Assembly: GCA_029976065.1 (NCBI GenBank)
Contig: JARKNV010000079.1
Span: 62,001-126,000 of the forward strand
Length of the DNA: 64,000 nt
DNA from: Selenomonadales bacterium
GTDB lineage: Bacteria; Bacillota; Negativicutes; Sporomusales; UBA7701
Reading direction: 5' to 3'
A program made the translations under genes and the position numbers. A model generated the notes under the pieces. It had not been told where the DNA came from, ran no database searches, and saw nothing but the letters and a program-made list of their open reading frames with translations. Of the stretch, positions 2,148 to 62,529 are shown piece by piece (position 1 is the stretch's first letter; the number at the start of each line of letters is the position of its first letter).

Positions 2148-3515
2148 ATGACATTATCTGAGCAGTTTGCCCAATACGTTGATAGTATAAAACTTACTGC
2201 GGATGATCAGGCAACAATTGAAGAAGTTAAATCGCGGATTATCGACTATATAGCAGTAACGAGCGCCGCAAAGTATTATTCTGATCTTCCTGCTAAACTT
2301 GAGGCTTATGCGGACGCATTAAGTGCGGGGAAGTGTAGCAAGCAGGCAGCTAATAGTCAGTATCCTGTAAATGTGGCCGGTTTTTTGAACGCCGCTTTAG
2401 CACATTGCCTTGATTATGACGACGGACATCTTTGGGCAGGCGTTCATGCCGCAGGCCCTGTGATAGGAACAGCCTTTGCTCTAGCGCCGATATATAAGCC
2501 GGATGGGAAGCTGTTTCTCGAAGCAATAATAGTAGGCTACGAATTAGAATACAGACTGGCGAAAGCATTAGGAAAATCCCATATAGAAAAAGGCTTCCAT
2601 GGTAGTTGTACATGCGGAGTAATTGGTGCGGCGGCCACGGCGGGTAAAATTCTCGGATTAGACAAAAAACAGTTAGCTTACGCCATAGGCCTGGCTGGAT
2701 TAGGCGCATCAGGATTTCGTCAGCCGTTGCTTGAAGGCCAGATGTCAAAACCGATACAAGTCGGGTATGTCGCCGAAAAAGGGATCATAGCCGCTTTGCT
2801 GGCTAGTCAGGATATTGAAGCGCCGCTGCAAATTTTTGAAGGGAAAAATGGACTATTTTCCATCTTTTCCGATACACCCAAAGAGCAAATTGTTCATGCC
2901 TGTTTGGATGGATTGGGTGAGAGGCATTTAATTAATGATACATACACAAAACTTTATCCCTGTTGCCGCTATACTCATGCGGCGATAGAGGCTGCCTTTA
3001 AATTAATTGAGATGCTTCCGGACCTGAAAGAAATAAAGGAGATTGTCGTCAATACCTTTGATATCGCTATTGAGGCAACAGCGCCTAACCATAAACCGCA
3101 AAGCATCGGCTCAGCCAGATTTAGTATGAACTACCTCTTAGCGGTTGCGCTGCATCAAGGGTTTGTTGGTGCGGACGATTTCACTGACGAGGCGATACGC
3201 CGCAAGGAAATTCTGGCAACAGCGGAAAAAGTCAAAAGTTACTCTACTAAGGAGTGGAACGACGTATATCCCAATATTAGGGGCGCCGAAGTTGTTATCA
3301 AAACCAACAAAGGAGATTGTTATTCTCAAAAGATTGAGCGACTCGCAGGAATGCCGGGAGACCATGCAGAGGTAAAAAGAAAATTCGGTAATGCCTGCAA
3401 GAAAACTTTTTCGGCAGAACAATCACAAAAAATCATTGACTATGTTTCAGAAATAGAAAAATATCCTGACGTATCCAAACTCATTTTATTATGTAACGAA
3501 AAAACGGTTGGTTAA
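2148..3515 (+). CDS. MmgE/PrpD family protein (third, divergent copy)
   Basis: This is a 455-residue MmgE/PrpD protein. The ATG at 2148 is preferred over TTG at 2142 because AAAGGGGTG ends nine bases upstream. The acidic motif is present as LDYDDGH followed by WAGVHAAGP. The protein has Cys and Arg residues (YPCCRYTHAAIEA) in the C-terminal half, where the first two copies have HACMRGLHCALDA. It is clearly more distant from them than they are from each other. A different step or stereochemistry on the same substrate is likely, but that is inference. A long palindrome (3541-3567) follows the gene. Confidence 0.85.
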   Translation: MTLSEQFAQYVDSIKLTADDQATIEEVKSRIIDYIAVTSAAKYYSDLPAKLEAYADALSAGKCSKQAANSQYPVNVAGFLNAALAHCLDYDDGHLWAGVHAAGPVIGTAFALAPIYKPDGKLFLEAIIVGYELEYRLAKALGKSHIEKGFHGSCTCGVIGAAATAGKILGLDKKQLAYAIGLAGLGASGFRQPLLEGQMSKPIQVGYVAEKGIIAALLASQDIEAPLQIFEGKNGLFSIFSDTPKEQIVHACLDGLGERHLINDTYTKLYPCCRYTHAAIEAAFKLIEMLPDLKEIKEIVVNTFDIAIEATAPNHKPQSIGSARFSMNYLLAVALHQGFVGADDFTDEAIRRKEILATAEKVKSYSTKEWNDVYPNIRGAEVVIKTNKGDCYSQKIERLAGMPGDHAEVKRKFGNACKKTFSAEQSQKIIDYVSEIEKYPDVSKLILLCNEKTVG

Positions 3516-3540
3516 TGTACTTGATTAAATTTTTATCAAC

Positions 3541-3567
3541 ATTGAATAAAACGATGTTTTATTCAAT
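3541..3567. promoter_or_regulatory. perfect 12 bp inverted repeat, candidate operator
   Basis: ATTGAATAAAAC and its exact complement GTTTTATTCAAT are separated by GAT, in the 239-base gap before the PrpF-like gene. The hairpin is AT-rich and no T-tract follows it, so an operator fits better than a terminator. No regulator gene lies in this block. Confidence 0.5.
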
Positions 3568-3754
3568 GGAACATAGGTGTTTTTTGGGGGAGATAAATAC
3601 ATTACCTCGCGCCGGTTTAGTTAAACATTTATAAGGCTAATTACAGAGTAAAAGGGGGGGGACCAAGACATCGGAATAGTTGGCTCACATTCGTGTGGGT
3701 AAACAGCTCTGAGGGATTGACAAGTATTTGGTGAGGAAGCTGAGGAGGAGAAAG

Positions 3755-4915
3755 ATGGAAAGAGAAGCGGTACGTGTGCCTTGCGCGATCGTTCGCGGCG
3801 GTACCAGCAAAGCGGTTTTTCTAAACGAACATGAAATTCCTACGGCAGGGCCGCAACGCGACAAATTCATACTGCGGATTTTCGGCAGCCCGGATCAGCG
3901 ACAGATTGACGGTTTAGGCGGGGCCAACTCATTGACCAGCAAAGTCGCGATCATCGGTCCTTCGCAGCGCGAAGACGCTGATGTTGACTACACCTTTGGG
4001 CAAGTATCGTTTGCCGCTCCGGTGATTGACTGGCTGGGCAACTGCGGCAATATTTCTTCCGCCGTTGGGCTCTATGCCGTGGATGAAGGATTTGTCAAAC
4101 CGGTTGAACCCTATACCGTCGTACGAATTTATAATACCAATACCGATAAAATGATCTTCGCCACAGTACCGGTTAAGGACGGCAAGGCATTATCCGAAGG
4201 CGATTATGAAATTGACGGAGTCCCGGGTACCGGCGCGCGGATCCTATTAGAGTTTGACGATCCCGCAGGATCGGTTACCAAGAAGTTGCTACCGACCGGG
4301 AACCCCAAAGATATCATCGATCTTGGCGCAAAAGGCAAATTCACTGTTTCGGTGGTTGACGCGGCCAATCCGGTTGTCTTTATGAAGGCCGAGGAACTGG
4401 GGCTGAAAGGAACTGAGCTGCCTACCGAAGTAGAAGGCATGCCGGAAGTATTGAAAATAATCGAAGAGGTTAGGAGCGTTGTGGCGGCAAAGGTCGGCAT
4501 TGTTGAGGATGCCAGCCTTGCTACCAAAACGAGTCCGGCAATCCCGAAAATCGGCTTCGTTTCCCCGAAAACCGATTACAAAAATCCGGACGGGAAAATG
4601 GTCTCGGCGAAGGATATTGATTTCGTAGCCCGTTTGGCGTCGATGCAGAAGATGCACCGCGCGTATATGGTCACCGGGGGTGTTTGCACAGGCACGGCCG
4701 CTAAAATTGAAGGGTCGATTGTCTGGGAATTGCTGGACGATGCCGCCCGCAAGGCAGATACCATCCGTATCGGGCACCCATATGGCGTAATGGACGTAAA
4801 GGTTACGCTAAATTCCGGCAATACTGACAATTTGGTTCAGCGGGTGGGTGTCGGCAGAACAGCCAGACGGATTATGGAAGGATATGCCTACGTTCCTAAG
4901 ACTTTACTGAAGTAG
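3755..4915 (+). CDS. PrpF-family polycarboxylate isomerase
   Basis: This 386-residue protein belongs to the PrpF family. Members move or isomerise carbon-carbon double bonds in unsaturated polycarboxylates, for example 2-methylaconitate cis-trans isomerase, 3-methylitaconate delta-isomerase and aconitate isomerase. The N-terminus shows VRGGTSKAVFL. Lys63 (SLTSKVA) and Cys97 (GNCGNISS) have the same 34-residue spacing as the Lys73/Cys107 pair I recall for Shewanella PrpF. The ATG at 3755 is chosen over upstream TTG/GTG codons because AGGAGG lies seven bases before it. Next to three MmgE/PrpD genes it probably prepares or consumes the unsaturated acid they handle. Confidence 0.85.
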   Translation: MEREAVRVPCAIVRGGTSKAVFLNEHEIPTAGPQRDKFILRIFGSPDQRQIDGLGGANSLTSKVAIIGPSQREDADVDYTFGQVSFAAPVIDWLGNCGNISSAVGLYAVDEGFVKPVEPYTVVRIYNTNTDKMIFATVPVKDGKALSEGDYEIDGVPGTGARILLEFDDPAGSVTKKLLPTGNPKDIIDLGAKGKFTVSVVDAANPVVFMKAEELGLKGTELPTEVEGMPEVLKIIEEVRSVVAAKVGIVEDASLATKTSPAIPKIGFVSPKTDYKNPDGKMVSAKDIDFVARLASMQKMHRAYMVTGGVCTGTAAKIEGSIVWELLDDAARKADTIRIGHPYGVMDVKVTLNSGNTDNLVQRVGVGRTARRIMEGYAYVPKTLLK

Positions 4916-56685: not shown

Positions 56686-58161
56686 ATGAATTTCTTCAAA
56701 AAAGATGCCCCGTGCGACGAAGCCCTATGTATCATCAAACATGTTGAAGATCGGCTAAGCGGGAAAAAAGTGTTAGTCCTCAGGCCGGATTATCCTATTC
56801 ATCAAACCATGCTTAAGCATTTTGACAAACTGTTGTCCAACGAAGAAAAAATGTCGCTTAGCGCGAAGAAAATGCTGGGTATTACCTCCTCCCTGAGCCA
56901 GTTCGATGTAGATATGTCGCACTCCGCCTACCAGCTGAGCGATTTTGCCAACAATCTGTCGGGTCTAAGCGAATCGAACCTGGCTATTGTCGAGGAAATT
57001 ACCGCCAGCATGAGCGACGTAAACGAAAAAATTACTTATACCTCCGGCATTATGGACAAACTCTCCAGTTCGTCGAACATGCTGATCCAGAAGAATGACG
57101 AGAGTATGCTCCAATTGGCCGAGGTCGCCAAGCTGAAAGAGCATGTGATAACCGACACCACAAGGATGACCGAGCAAATCGAACACCTGGTAAAAATGGT
57201 CGTTAAAGTGAGCGAAATCGTCAACGGTGTCGAAGCGATCGCGGAAGAAACCAACCTGCTGGCGCTTAACGCCTCCATAGAAGCGGCCAGGGCCGGGGAA
57301 TCCGGGAGAGGGTTTGCGGTCGTGGCCAATGAAATAAGGAAACTGGCCGACAACACCAAAAAGAATCTGGACGACATGCGCGGCTTCGTCAACAGCATCC
57401 ACCTGGCGGCGAACGGCAGCAAGGAGAGCCTCGACCACACGATGCAATCCACCGGCAACATGAACGAAAAATTGGATATGATCTCCGATACCATTAAAGA
57501 AAATGTATTCATGATGCAAGACACGATAAAAGATGTCCATAAAGTGTCGGAGTCGCTGCAAAACATCAAGCTATCGGCGGCCGAAGTCAATCAGGCCATG
57601 GGCTCCTCGGCCCAGGACGCGGAAAAGCTGCTCGGTATGACCCAGATTATTCAGGCCGACGCGAATCAAAGCAAGGAAAACGCGAAACTGATTTCGCGGA
57701 TCGACGAAGACCTGAGCGCCATTGTGAGGGACATGACAGTGTCTTTGCTCGGCGGCATGCATGCGATTTCGAACGAGGATTTGATCAGCAATCTGCAAAA
57801 AGCCAAGGAAGCTCATGGCACCTGGCTGAAAAACCTGAAACGGATTGTGGACGACATGAAGGTTTATCCCATCCAGACTGATTCCAAGCGTTGCGCTTTC
57901 GGCCATTTCTATCATTCCCTGCAGATAAACCATCCCGATCTCATTGACGAATGGCAGGCCATCGACGGGGTGCATGACAAGTTCCACAGCATGGGGGCGG
58001 CGGTACTTGACGCGGTCCGAGACAAAAACGAGGTTCAGGCTCGTGCCCTGCTGGCAGAGGCCCAGCAACTGTCGGGAGAGATTTTTGCCCATCTGGATAA
58101 TACGATCGAAGCCATTGAAAAGAACGCGAGACTGGGAATTGAAGTGCTAAAGGTCAGTTAA
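56686..58161 (+). CDS. soluble methyl-accepting chemotaxis protein with C-terminal CZB zinc-binding domain
   Basis: This 491-residue chemoreceptor has no membrane helix. A helical N-terminal region leads to the signalling domain, whose tip is [20 protein letters not shown] near residue 190. The C-terminus is a CZB domain: His near 377 (AHGTWLKN), Cys near 403 in [10 protein letters not shown], and later histidines in [13 protein letters not shown] domains bind zinc and can sense redox or oxidant changes. GAAGGGAG precedes the ATG. It would report cytoplasmic conditions to CheA/CheW. Confidence 0.9.
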
Positions 58162-58209
58162 AGGAAATTGCTCCACACCGCCAGATAAGGTATTGTCCCA
58201 TATAAAAAG

Positions 58210-58300
58210 ATGCAAGTGCTTGGCGAGAGCTGCGACAAATGGCTCCGCTGCTACCGCTGCCGGGAGCTACGCTCCGAAAATACCGTGCATTTGCTAACCT
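58210..58300 (+). pseudogene. degenerate fragment of a DUF362/ferredoxin gene 3' end
   Basis: Translation in the frame starting ATG 58210 gives CDKWLRCYRCRELRSENTVHLL. This aligns with YDKCIRCYCCQELCPEDAVHL from the intact gene at 56449-56510, but four cluster cysteines are replaced. Nucleotide similarity over about 60 bases is obvious. It is a decayed relic, not a functional ferredoxin. Confidence 0.7.
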
Positions 58301-58317
58301 TCCTTGCTTTCGAGCAA

Positions 58318-58355
58318 ATAAAAACAACCACCCTGAAATCGGGTGGTTGTTTTTA
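58318..58355. terminator. bidirectional terminator
   Basis: AACAACCACCC and GGGTGGTTGTT form an 11 bp stem with A-rich and T-rich flanks. It isolates the chemoreceptor from the recombinase cassette, which reads toward it from the right. Confidence 0.88.
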
Positions 58356-58419
58356 TTTAGGCAATAAGCGGGAAGCGGGCATAGCGGGTTTTACTTTGCC
58401 TTCTGGACTAGTACAAAAT

Positions 58420-58442
58420 GTAACATAATCAGTTTATGTTAC
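58420..58442 (+). repeat. left recombination-like site of the invertible cassette
   Basis: GTAACATAA, spacer TCAGT, TTATGTTAC: 9 bp inverted arms around a 5-base asymmetric spacer. The right site at 59175 is its exact reverse complement. Confidence 0.8.
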
Positions 58443-58533
58443 TAATTAAAAATAAAAATTAACAATACAATTCTCTTTTTTTGACAGCTTTCCTTCTATT
58501 CCGACAATTTATTTATTTTTGCCCACAGAATCT

Positions 58534-59094
58534 TTATAGGTTTAAGTTTCTGTAAACATTATCCAGATCATCCTTCGTAATTCCTATATAAGCTAAGGTA
58601 ATACCGGGAGTGGAATGATTGAGCAGCTTTTGAATTTTAGTTATATCTGCGCCATTTTTATAAGCCCAATAGCCAAATGTCTTTCGCAAGGTATGTGTGC
58701 CAATCGCCTCTTTTATGCCTATCATGCGGGCCGCCTTATTTATCACTCTATAAGCTTGTATTCGAGTAATCGGATGATTGCCTTTTTTGCTTTTAAATAA
58801 CCAATTGCCATCTATCTTAGTGCTTACAAGATATTCGCGAATAGCTTCCTTACATGTATCTGAAAGAGGAAAATCTTTAGGTTTGCCAGTTTTTTTCTCG
58901 CGCAAAGTAATACGGTCGATTTCTTTCACGTTATCTATGGTAAGAGACAGTAAATCCGAAATTCGCAAACCGCTATTGATACCTAGTACAAAGAGCAAAT
59001 AATCACGCAAGTTTTGTTTCTTTAGATGGCGCTTGATAGCAATAATTTGTTCCTTGCTGCGAATTGGTTCCACGCATTCCATGTTAATAATCAC
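58534..59094 (-). CDS. small tyrosine recombinase, FimB/FimE-sized
   Basis: This 186-residue protein consists essentially of the catalytic domain of tyrosine recombinases. All expected residues are visible: Arg44 (SGLRISD), Lys near 68-71 (EKKTGK), His134 and Arg137 (HTLRKT), His160 (LLNHSTPG) and the nucleophile Tyr169 (LAYIG). FimB/FimE invertases are about this size and lack the core-binding domain of phage integrases. Start is GTG at 59094 (or ATG at 59082). The gene lies wholly between two inverted 23 bp sites. AT-rich composition marks it as acquired. Confidence 0.88.
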   Translation of the reverse strand: MIINMECVEPIRSKEQIIAIKRHLKKQNLRDYLLFVLGINSGLRISDLLSLTIDNVKEIDRITLREKKTGKPKDFPLSDTCKEAIREYLVSTKIDGNWLFKSKKGNHPITRIQAYRVINKAARMIGIKEAIGTHTLRKTFGYWAYKNGADITKIQKLLNHSTPGITLAYIGITKDDLDNVYRNLNL

Positions 59095-59174
59095 ATCCCA
59101 CGAATTAGTTGTTTATGTAATTTAATATGTTATGCCAAGAAGCCAGAAATACCTTGTAAAAAGCAGAAAAAAAT

Positions 59175-59197
59175 GTAACATAAACTGATTATGTTAC
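59175..59197 (-). repeat. right recombination-like site of the invertible cassette
   Basis: GTAACATAA, spacer ACTGA, TTATGTTAC. With three further bases (ATT) outside, it matches the left site in inverted orientation over 26 bases. The HD-GYP gene starts 46 bases further on. Confidence 0.8.
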
Positions 59198-59243
59198 ATT
59201 AAATCGTTTGGGCTTTTAAATTTATAAGTTAGGAGATTAGGGC

Positions 59244-60266
59244 ATGAAATATTTTCGGCTTGCTTTGTTGGAGCTAAAGCCCGGAATGATTTTAGCAAAG
59301 AACATTTTTTCTGATAAACAATTAATTCTAAAAAAAGAAACTGTTTTAACAGATGCCTTTATCTCTTTATTAAAATTGTGGAACATTCCATTGGTGGACG
59401 TTTTCTGCACAAAAAATGAAAATATCAGTTACGCCGAATTTGAAGATTTCCACACGTCGACAGTAGCGGTTTTAACTGAAATCATTAATAAGGCCCGCCT
59501 TTTTAAAACTTTATCCATTACCGGTTTAAACGAGATTGTCAAGACATCCGAACATATCATTACTTGTGAAAAAGGCATTTTGGCCTATCTTGCAATGATC
59601 AAGAACACCGACGACTCAATTTATCGGCATTCGGTCACTGTTGGAATTTTAGCCGGGCTTATCGGCAAGTGGGTAGGACATTCCAATCTGCAGGAACTGA
59701 TATTGGCAGGATTTCTACATGATATCGGAAAAACGCAGGTTTCACTTCAGCTGCTGAATAAGCCGGGCAAGCTTAATGCGGATGAGTGGGAAATTATAAG
59801 GCGGCACCCGTACCTGGGTATCAAATTGCTTAAATTAACTGCCGGCCTATCTGAGCAGGTTCTGAGAGGGATTTATCAGCATCATGAACGGATGGACGGC
59901 AGCGGGTATCCGGATGGTCTACGTGACCGGGAAATCGCAATAGACGCGAAGATTATTTCTATAGCCGATGTCTATGACGCCATGACTTCCAACAGGGCCT
60001 ACCGGGTGGCGGAAACGCCTTTTCGGGCGATAGAGGAAATGCACGGCGAGATGTTTGACAAACTGGATCCGAAGTTATGCAATACTTTTATTTCGCATGC
60101 CAAAGAATCGTTTATTGGCATGAGCGTACGGTTGTCCGACGGGTCTGAAGCGACTGTCGTAGGGATTGACAAAACAACACTGATAAAACCGATTCTCCGC
60201 TGCGATAAAGGTAGTTACATAAATCTTACCCAAAGACACGATCTGACGATCGTTGACGTTACCTAG
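59244..60266 (+). CDS. HD-GYP domain protein, probable cyclic-di-GMP phosphodiesterase
   Basis: This 340-residue protein has an N-terminal region of about 110 residues with no named domain and then an HD-GYP domain. The metal and catalytic HD is in GFLHDIGKTQVS (about residues 158-159). HHERMDGSGYPDGLRDREI carries the GYP motif near 219. HD-GYP enzymes hydrolyse cyclic di-GMP, so it may tune motility against adhesion next to chemotaxis genes. TTAGGAG precedes the ATG. Its upstream region reaches into the recombinase cassette. A terminator follows. Confidence 0.88.
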   Translation: MKYFRLALLELKPGMILAKNIFSDKQLILKKETVLTDAFISLLKLWNIPLVDVFCTKNENISYAEFEDFHTSTVAVLTEIINKARLFKTLSITGLNEIVKTSEHIITCEKGILAYLAMIKNTDDSIYRHSVTVGILAGLIGKWVGHSNLQELILAGFLHDIGKTQVSLQLLNKPGKLNADEWEIIRRHPYLGIKLLKLTAGLSEQVLRGIYQHHERMDGSGYPDGLRDREIAIDAKIISIADVYDAMTSNRAYRVAETPFRAIEEMHGEMFDKLDPKLCNTFISHAKESFIGMSVRLSDGSEATVVGIDKTTLIKPILRCDKGSYINLTQRHDLTIVDVT

Positions 60267-60313: not shown

Positions 60314-60343
60314 AGAGCTTTCCGTTGAACGAAAGCTCTTTTT
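60314..60343 (+). terminator. terminator after the HD-GYP gene
   Basis: AGAGCTTTC pairs with GAAAGCTCT, followed by TTTTAA. Confidence 0.88.
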
Positions 60344-60381: not shown

Positions 60382-62070
60382 ATGAAAATGAACTTAACAG
60401 CAAAAATGGTGATCTACTTTTTACTGGTCGTATTTGTGACTTCGACGGGATTTGTTTATACCATCTGGAAAGTTGACGAAGCGGCGGAGCTGGCGGACAA
60501 TGTCAACCAGCGGGAATTGCCCCGCCTGGTGAAAACAACCCGGATTAACATCAATGTCTCGGACGAAATCGTCGCCATGCGTGGATACTACATATATAAA
60601 GATCCCCAAATGATAAGCGACTATAAAAAACTGGCTGATGAAAACGTGAAACTCGAAGCGGAGCTTATCAGTGCTTCTGTCAATCCCGAGGCCAAGCTCC
60701 TGATCACCGAGGTCAAGGCGCTGGATGATAAGTATTCCGAACTGGCGGAAAAGAAATTCGTCCCCCTGATGCAGGCAGGTAAGCAGGAGGAGGCGCTTCA
60801 GGCTCTGGCGGAGATGGCTCCCATGGTCAAGGCGCTGAACGCCAAGATAGAAGAATATCAAACTTACCGCAACAAGGAAATCAGCGATGCGCTTAAATTG
60901 ACGGTGGCAAACACCCAGCAGGCCAGGCTGGCTGCCATCATAGCGGCGGCGCTCTCCGCCGTCCTCGGCATCGTCATCGGTTTCTTCGCAGCCCGCAGCA
61001 TTGCCCGGCCAGTTAACCAACTGGCCACCGTGGCCCAGAAAGTGGCCGGCGGCGACCTTACCGAACAAGTGGTAGTGGACCGCAAAGATGAGATCGGCCA
61101 ATTGGCTACGGCCTTCAACACCATGGTCGTTCAGCTCAAGAGCCTGATTAAGCAGATAACCGCCAGCGCTGAACATGTAGCGGCCTCGTCCGAGGAACTG
61201 ACCGCCAGTTCCGAACAATCGGCCCAAGCGGCCAACCAGATCGCGACTTCGACAACAGGAATGGCCAACGGAGCTACCGAGCAGCTGGCGGCGGCCAACG
61301 AAACCTCTGCGGTCGTGGAGCAGATGTCCGCCGGCATCCAGCAGGTAGCTGCCAACACCAATCACGTTTCGGAACAATCGGCCCAAGCGGCCGATAAAGC
61401 TAAGGAAGGCGGCAAAGCGGTCGAAAGAGCGGTGAGCCAGATGGTCCAGCTTGAGGGCACGGTCAACACTTCCGCCAATGTTGTGACTAAACTCGGCGAA
61501 CGGTCCAAGGAAATCGGCCAAATCGTCGACACCATCTCCGGTATTGCCGGACAGACCAACCTGCTGGCGCTCAATGCGGCCATCGAGGCGGCGCGGGCGG
61601 GCGAGCAGGGCCGGGGCTTTGCGGTGGTTGCGGAAGAAGTAAGAAAACTGGCCGAACAATCGCAGGAAGCGGCCAAAAAGATTGCCGAGCTTATCGGCGA
61701 AATCCAAGGCGACACCGATAAAGCTGTCGCGGCCATGAACGACGGCACACGGGAAGTAAAGACCGGGACCGAAGTAGTCAACGCCGCTGGCGTTGCGTTC
61801 CGGGAAATCGTGGAATTAGTGTCGCAAGTGTCGGACCAGGTAAGAGAAATTTCGGCGGCTATTCAGCAGATGGCCTCCGGCAGCCAGCAGATCGTGGGGG
61901 CAGTCAAGAAAATAGACACCCTCAGCAAAGCATCAGCGGGTGAGGCCCAGAGCGTTTCGGCGGCTACCGAGGAACAATTGGCCTCCATGGAGGAAATTGC
62001 CACATCCAGCCAAGCGCTGGCGAAGCTGGCCCAGGATCTCCAGTCGGCTGTTGCCAGGTTCCGGATATAG
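60382..62070 (+). CDS. methyl-accepting chemotaxis protein with four-helix-bundle sensor
   Basis: This 562-residue chemoreceptor has a first membrane helix at about residues 9-28, an extracellular helical sensor to about 180 of the 4HB_MCP type, and a second membrane helix near 185-205. HAMP follows ([20 protein letters not shown]), then the signalling coiled coil with the tip [20 protein letters not shown]. The tip region is nearly identical to that of the receptor at 18977. GAAGGGTGAAC precedes the ATG. cheW follows 18 bases later, so receptor and adaptor are co-expressed. Confidence 0.9.
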
Positions 62071-62088: not shown

Positions 62089-62529
62089 ATGGCGGAAGAA
62101 CAACTGGTATTGTTCCGTTTGGGACAGGAAGAATATGCGATATCCATAACCCAGGTCAAAGAAATCATCCAATACAAGGGTGCCACTCGGCTTCCCAATG
62201 CCCCGGAGTATATCGAAGGGATAATCAGCCTGCGCGGCAAGATCATTCCGGTGGTCGATCTGGGAAAGCAACTGGCGCTGGCGACGCCCGGGATAAACGA
62301 TAAACGCGCGTTGATCGTCGAGACGGCGGGGCGGGAAATTGGCATAGTGGTTGATGAGGTGACGGAAGTAATCCGGCTTCAGGACAGCGCCATCGCTCCG
62401 TTGCCTACGGCGACCGCGAACCGGTACATTAGAGGGGTCGGCAAGGAAGGAACTCGGCTACTCATACTGCTGGACGTGGACAAGTTGTTCGATGAGGGCG
62501 AGATGCAGGAACTAAAGAAAATAGGGTAA
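62089..62529 (+). CDS. cheW: chemotaxis coupling protein CheW
   Basis: This 146-residue CheW domain protein begins QLVLFRLGQEEYAISITQVK and has IEGIISLRGKIIPVVDL, both family hallmarks. It links receptors to the CheA kinase. AGAGGTAG precedes the ATG. No cheA or cheY is in the window, so it must join kinase encoded elsewhere or serve this one receptor. Confidence 0.93.
   Translation: MAEEQLVLFRLGQEEYAISITQVKEIIQYKGATRLPNAPEYIEGIISLRGKIIPVVDLGKQLALATPGINDKRALIVETAGREIGIVVDEVTEVIRLQDSAIAPLPTATANRYIRGVGKEGTRLLILLDVDKLFDEGEMQELKKIG

Follow-up and report, generated by a model that had tools for sequence, protein, structure and literature searches.

Within the 64-kb stretch of DNA analysed here (the window), two recombination sites lie in inverted orientation, and the sole accepted gene between them encodes a tyrosine recombinase (Table 1). 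Each site has 9-bp arms (GTAACATAA/TTATGTTAC) on either side of an asymmetric five-base spacer, TCAGT at the left and ACTGA at the right, and the outer edges of the two 23-bp cores are 778 bp apart. An original prediction made from this sequence had described the pair in the same terms, and every dimension was borne out, with the exact inverted repeat proving longer, at 26 nt and 100% complementarity. A search of the organism's own genome (3.42 Mb, 87.89% complete, 6.03% contamination) found the site pattern at these two places alone and a reversed control pattern nowhere. Matched recombination sites in inverted orientation, one criterion for an inverton, are present at this locus, which is itself known in one orientation only.

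Pfam and alignment agree with the earlier description of a single enclosed recombinase of 186 residues with all catalytic residues, with an ATG four codons inside the GTG (182 codons) as the more likely start. Phage_integrase is the only Pfam match of the protein (101.7 bits), and the catalytic set R44, K68, H134, R137, H160 and Y169 is present. Across 24 family loci including the window, these residues are conserved in 24, 24, 23, 23, 22 and 22 sequences, respectively, the exceptions being gaps, and the cognate recombinase is on this basis predicted to be catalytically complete. The enzyme had also been likened to FimB/FimE-type invertases, a likeness that does not extend to family membership, as it scored 48.5 and 53.4 bits, far under the curated cut-offs of 221 and 222 (NF007370 and NF007371). 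Membership of XerA, XerC or XerD was likewise rejected (102.8, 72.9 and 86.6 bits against cut-offs of 220, 335.15 and 329.6), and a Hin-type serine invertase is ruled out, the enzyme being a tyrosine recombinase of the Phage_integrase type. The half-site-like sequence in the recombinase promoter region may possibly serve autoregulation.

Table 1. Positions of features at the invertible locus, numbered from the first letter of the window
Feature	Position	Strand	Remarks
Strong left-flank hairpin, read as a bidirectional terminator	58316..58358		repeat search, folding
Left inverted site	58417..58442	+	23-bp core 58420-58442
Outward sigma-H-type promoter motif, AGGAAA-N15-GAAT	58470..58494	-	points away from HD-GYP now, would point towards it after inversion
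Spo0A-box-like sequence, TGTCGGAA	58499..58506	-	imperfect here
Tyrosine recombinase	58534..59094	-	186 codons from GTG; Pfam match
Internal half-site-like sequence, CATAACATA	59126..59134	-	in recombinase promoter region
Right-junction hairpin, 12-bp stem	59172..59200	+	stem as sequenced; does not exceed swapped flanks
Right inverted site	59175..59200	-	23-bp core 59175-59197
HD-GYP protein, presumed switched gene	59244..60266	+	HD, HH and GYP motifs
Terminator-like hairpin 3' of HD-GYP	60314..60339	+	4 such found, 3.7 in shuffles: class not above chance
Chemoreceptor (MCP), possible second output	60382..62070	+	clusters with and matches relatives with a Pfam MCP domain (L061)
CheW-like protein	62089..62529	+	follows MCP; name presumed from this position

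The right site lies 46 bp from the start of the HD-GYP gene. To the left of the segment, folding of the hairpin gave -26.4/-27.8 kcal/mol (z -6.65/-8.00), and a terminator pattern scan of 58150-59300 listed none; of the bidirectional terminator said to guard this flank, the strong hairpin stands, and its role as a terminator is our reading. Before this hairpin, at 56686-58161, lies the gene of another chemoreceptor, which carries a CZB zinc-binding domain.

Related cassettes and their site code

Relatives of the recombinase were sought in the order (28 genomes) and the class (380 genomes) at E <= 1e-30, and 36 of the 380 genomes of the class carry one. We examined the surroundings of 53 loci (52 of the 59 class matches plus L085, with 7 weaker matches left out) and found matched inverted sites around the recombinase at 25 of them, with a total length of 705-907 bp; this number includes L069, where a contig end truncates the left site. 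Two further loci, L114 and L116, run into a contig end and so have one visible site each. In a tree of 50 recombinases (L082, L085 and L127 being left out for their short length), one clade with a support of 95/96 holds the paired-site loci in the tree except L121. Its 25 rows include L114, L116 and L118, the last of which has paired sites. These counts are not independent, since the loci share ancestry.

Outside this clade the layout differs. No exact inverted repeat of at least 15 bp was found around the recombinase in 12 further relatives, most from other phyla or classes (L047-L058, drawn from 16 loci of which three repeat G003/G005 and L059 was left out), and a plasmid relative (G022:C2) has no paired sites. 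Several relatives have a single site near or upstream of the recombinase start with no partner seen nearby, either exact (L070, L071, L073, L074, L085 and L125) or with one mismatch (L072, L075, L120, L124 and L126); L075 is the second relative in the genome of the window and adjoins two large genes without a Pfam match. When the order was searched for the site pattern, the reversed control pattern also matched in 9 of the 28 genomes, and lone site matches there may therefore be due to chance. One lone site, GTAACATAAGACTGTTATGTTAC (L136:7647-8147, G024), lies 7 bp ahead of a CheW-like gene as called, with an MCP gene next and no recombinase in the displayed neighbourhood, and is possibly a decayed switch. 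At L069 (L069:724-3337, G015) a third site lies 3' of the MCP gene in direct orientation relative to the right site, which would make excision or a larger inversion possible. In L079 and L082 the recombinase is broken by stop codons and both sites are intact, so that these switches may be stuck in one orientation or depend on a recombinase acting in trans.

The sites of the family follow the consensus GTAACANAA-NNNNN-TTNTGTTAC. Within each of the 24 complete pairs (L069, with its cut left site, being left out) the 9-bp core at positions 8-16 is identical in both members, and among the pairs there are 14 different cores and 13 different five-base spacers. Random re-pairing gave a mean of 2.2 core matches and a maximum of 8, against the 24 observed. 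No core equals its own reverse complement, and orientation is therefore defined. Two cassettes of a single genome (G003) differ in spacer, with TCAGT in L061 and TCTAC in L063.

Inversion and the genes outside the sites

Two relatives that are 95% identical, L115 and L117, are collinear at 94-95% in both flanks (1-1877 and 2646-3826), and the segment between is reversed exactly from site to site, with 1845-2674 matching 2740-1912. Both orientations thus exist in nature for this family. Among 25 loci with a visible target side (24 paired-site loci plus L114), the recombinase is divergent from the target in 22 and parallel to it in three (L106, L110 and L115), an imbalance that may reflect rare or biased flipping. 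A distance of about 500 bp separates the HD-GYP gene from the site in L106 and L110. Contigs end within a site or at most 4 bp from one in five genomes (G015, G101, G107, G174 and, at both flanks, G009, in which no recombinase relative was found). About 0.18 such site-linked ends would be expected by chance over 20 contigs, a figure that leaves out the lone-site contigs of G018 and G021 (the latter contig stopping 156 bp short of or beyond its site) and would rise to about 0.3 with them. This evidence is indirect, since repeats of this kind could also interrupt an assembly made with low k-mers. In G174 an inverted-type junction precedes an MCP gene beside an N gap, and because of this gap we do not claim L118/L119 as both orientations in one genome. 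The exact inversion between L115 and L117, the pair-matched cores and the contig ends in five genomes all support the predicted ability of the segment to flip, and the comparison that the prediction had proposed, for the same sites in relatives, yielded paired sites at nearly half of the loci examined with both orientations represented. We hold an inversion switch in the family with high confidence, and by extension the segment in the window would itself invert.

The first gene outward of the target-side site encodes an MCP at 12 and an HD-GYP protein at 11 of the 25 loci, 23 together, as read from the neighbourhoods and for some from Pfam. At L065 a transposase-like gene, recognized by eye, lies between the site and the MCP gene, and at L108:7205-7792 (G119) the outward gene encodes a sigma-70-family protein that also matches the spore_sigH profile below its cut-off. 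In L117 an ATG after GAGGAGG lies 33 bp from the site. This recurrence of outward targets supports the earlier proposal of the HD-GYP gene as the output, which we accept for the window locus with moderate confidence.

The outward motif and the junction hairpins

The original prediction had named no strong outward promoter. This is corrected by a conserved promoter-like motif at the recombinase-3' end, which points out of the segment and, in the window, faces away from the HD-GYP gene. The sigma-H consensus, as in spoIIA, is AGGAWW-N15-GAAT, and the window motif fits it exactly. All motif and hairpin counts leave out L118, a near-copy of L119, and L114 and L116, which are cut by contig ends. 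At least 9 of the 10 positions of the strict consensus are matched at the recombinase-3' end of 13 of 24 loci, with a mean score of 8.46 against 7.46 in shuffles, and the match is exact (10/10) in three only (L060, L061 and L082); spacings other than 15-16 gave no excess across the 24 loci. When the motif was relaxed to GWAW, a change made after the data had been seen, it was exact in 16 of 24 loci at 36-60 bp from the site (shuffles: mean 0.15, maximum 2) and matched at 9 or more positions in 21 (shuffles: 2.76). For the same 24 loci, the inward strand gave no exact match and two of at least 9/10, and the other end of the segment gave none of either kind.

These matches suggest that the motif may act as a promoter at the window locus, and with lower confidence that the output would depend on sigma-H. 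SigH is above its cut-off in 13 of 13 genomes and Spo0A in 12 of 13. Upstream of spoIIAA, in a comparison of 12 genomes made without a shuffle control of its own, the motif is exact in five, including the genome of the window, matches at 9/10 in a sixth and is absent from six; spoVG is present in one of 13 genomes, and the motif was not found in the 330 bp upstream of it. A sequence like the Spo0A box (TGNCRAA) lies upstream of the motif in 9 of 24 loci, the window copy being imperfect. A sigma-70 scan of the segment returned three matches, at 58481, 58697 and 58976, all on the + strand and facing HD-GYP in the present orientation, the best being TTGACA-16-GACAAT at 58481. They could drive HD-GYP now; as shuffles give 3.4, their number equals the chance expectation and we did not accept them as output promoters.

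A second feature of the family is a hairpin split across the target-side site. The mean pairing energy between the recombinase-5' end and the target flank of the same locus is -14.1 kcal/mol over 24 loci, against -9.0 with swapped flanks and -10.1 in the best of 60 flank permutations; in comparison pairings, the 3' end gave -6.5 and, over 22 loci, the 5' end with the other flank -5.7 kcal/mol. Strong split hairpins, of -19 kcal/mol or beyond, occur in 8 of the 24 (L069, L106, L107, L108, L109, L110, L113 and L117), and the fold of the whole junction reaches -43.5 kcal/mol in relatives. The junction fold is stabler with the recombinase-5' end in 20 of 24, and the junction palindrome is longer with this end in 18, never with the 3' end and tied in 6, many of the differences being of 2-4 bases. 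In the parallel loci L106 and L110 the partner of the 5' end sits at the far side of the segment, as if flipped. Strong pairing of the 3' end with the outer flank away from the target is seen as well in L066, L113 and L119, as though the present orientation insulated that side also. For the window, pairing of the 5' end with the target flank reaches -7.5 kcal/mol, weaker than both the swapped mean and the other flank (-9.7), and we therefore claim no hairpin lock there; the whole junction folds at -15.1 kcal/mol now and would fold at -8.7 when flipped.

Readings of the probable switch

We take the anatomy of the locus, the family, the pair-matched cores and the inversion in a relative as established, and consider it likely that the segment in the window is a recombinase-carrying phase-variation cassette, probably OFF as sequenced because the conserved motif faces away from HD-GYP. 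The encoded recombinase would recombine both inverted sites and so flip the 778-bp segment. In the sequenced orientation the sigma-H-type promoter would point left towards the putative terminator, leaving HD-GYP OFF; after a flip its distance to the right site would be about 50 bp, and transcription across this site would enter HD-GYP behind a leader of about 90 nt, turning the gene ON, with MCP and CheW possibly co-expressed by read-through. Orientation would in this way change HD-GYP expression, with a predicted effect on c-di-GMP or chemotaxis. In several relatives the hairpin between the 5' end and the target flank, closed in the OFF orientation only, may add a second lock, which in the window would be weak or absent.

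The same anatomy could be read in the opposite sense, with the present orientation ON and the flipped form OFF. The window shares its orientation with 22 of the 25 sequenced relatives, a TATAAT-like sequence lies within the 80-bp recombinase-5' end of several loci, and the three sigma-70-like matches all face the presumed target. Yet none of these matches lies within the 5' end, their number is at shuffle level, the one at 58481 is absent by eye from the nearest relative, L061, and the conserved motif faces the other way, so that we think this sense unlikely. Quite unlikely, in our view, is attenuation as proposed for cwpV, in which a promoter outside the segment reads through and the junction hairpin terminates in one orientation, the internal motif being secondary. 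The strong split hairpins and whole-junction folds of relatives are in its favour, and in the model put forward for cwpV the OFF transcript carries an intrinsic terminator (PMC2784873). Against it, the window has a strong hairpin directly to the left of the segment, and its junction hairpin is at the level of chance pairing.

Mobile baggage is a distinctly improbable reading, in which the recombinase would be a minimal element inserted between two sites, with inversions as by-products and an uncontrolled neighbour. Related recombinases do occur in 236 phage records (all below 60% identity) and 2,712 plasmid records (2,707 below 60%), and the flanking genes on the non-target side vary between loci, but the near-constant choice of an MCP or HD-GYP gene on the outward side, the recurrence of the outward motif and the strong pairing of the 5' end with its own target flank in about one-third of the loci speak against this reading. 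Sites that serve as operators for autoregulation alone, with the difference between L115 and L117 an accident, would fit the half-site-like sequence that recurs in the recombinase promoter region and the related group whose members have one site close to the start of the recombinase; the exactness of that inversion, the matching of cores within pairs and the contig breaks at sites make this very improbable. The phase-variation cassette is the reading that we prefer.

Known DNA switches mostly control surface structures. In Hin of Salmonella an outward promoter lies in the segment that carries the recombinase gene; the window shares this placement of the gene inside the inverted segment, although Hin is a serine and the window enzyme a tyrosine recombinase. 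FimB and FimE are small tyrosine recombinases, as is the window enzyme, and invert a promoter segment, but the fim genes lie outside their switch whereas the window gene lies inside. Sekulovic et al. (2018; PMC5903667) name the Hin gene as lying within its own segment and report one 844-bp invertible segment in Providencia that encloses a recombinase. In the Clostridia of that paper, inversion signatures adjoin MCP, HD-type phosphodiesterase and chemotaxis genes, and signalling and chemotaxis are the most prevalent neighbours, an exception to the rule of surface structures (PMC5903667). Inversions near such genes are thus already known in Clostridia, and the window cassette is a variant of known switches. 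The species named in that paper are others than those of the present family, and its Clostridia section does not mention the shared recombinase clade, the pair-matched site code, the internal sigma-H-type motif or the split hairpin found here (PMC5903667), though its sites may overlap with the present family. As described for Clostridioides difficile, the pdcB switch likewise has an invertible promoter before a c-di-GMP phosphodiesterase gene and is OFF in the reference, but its enzyme is of the EAL type and the required recombinase was not identified there (PMC9286219). In cwpV of C. difficile, a terminator hairpin is predicted to form in the OFF orientation alone, where the repeat meets the inverted region, as may be the case in several relatives here; the cwpV promoter lies outside the segment (PMC2784873). 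Among the matches listed from the open-access literature, no title describes this cassette family.

We tentatively extend this reading, in a form that we hold to be possible rather than probable, to a lineage-wide set of orthogonal self-flipping cassettes. Each would have its own recombinase and core code, without cross-recombination of paralogues, and together they would put chemoreceptors, HD-GYP phosphodiesterases and one sigma factor under a sporulation-stage promoter (sigma-H, perhaps Spo0A) in a fraction of cells, some with a split terminator as a second lock. If this is true, DNA itself would encode a bet-hedging decision of whether to swim or to sporulate. In a further bacterial class, the family would bring sensing and c-di-GMP turnover under phase variation and link both to a sigma factor of sporulation. 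With their small size, self-sufficiency and pairwise matched cores, the cassettes make up a naturally occurring collection of inversion systems that may be orthogonal, and they suit a simple test of what the core must match.
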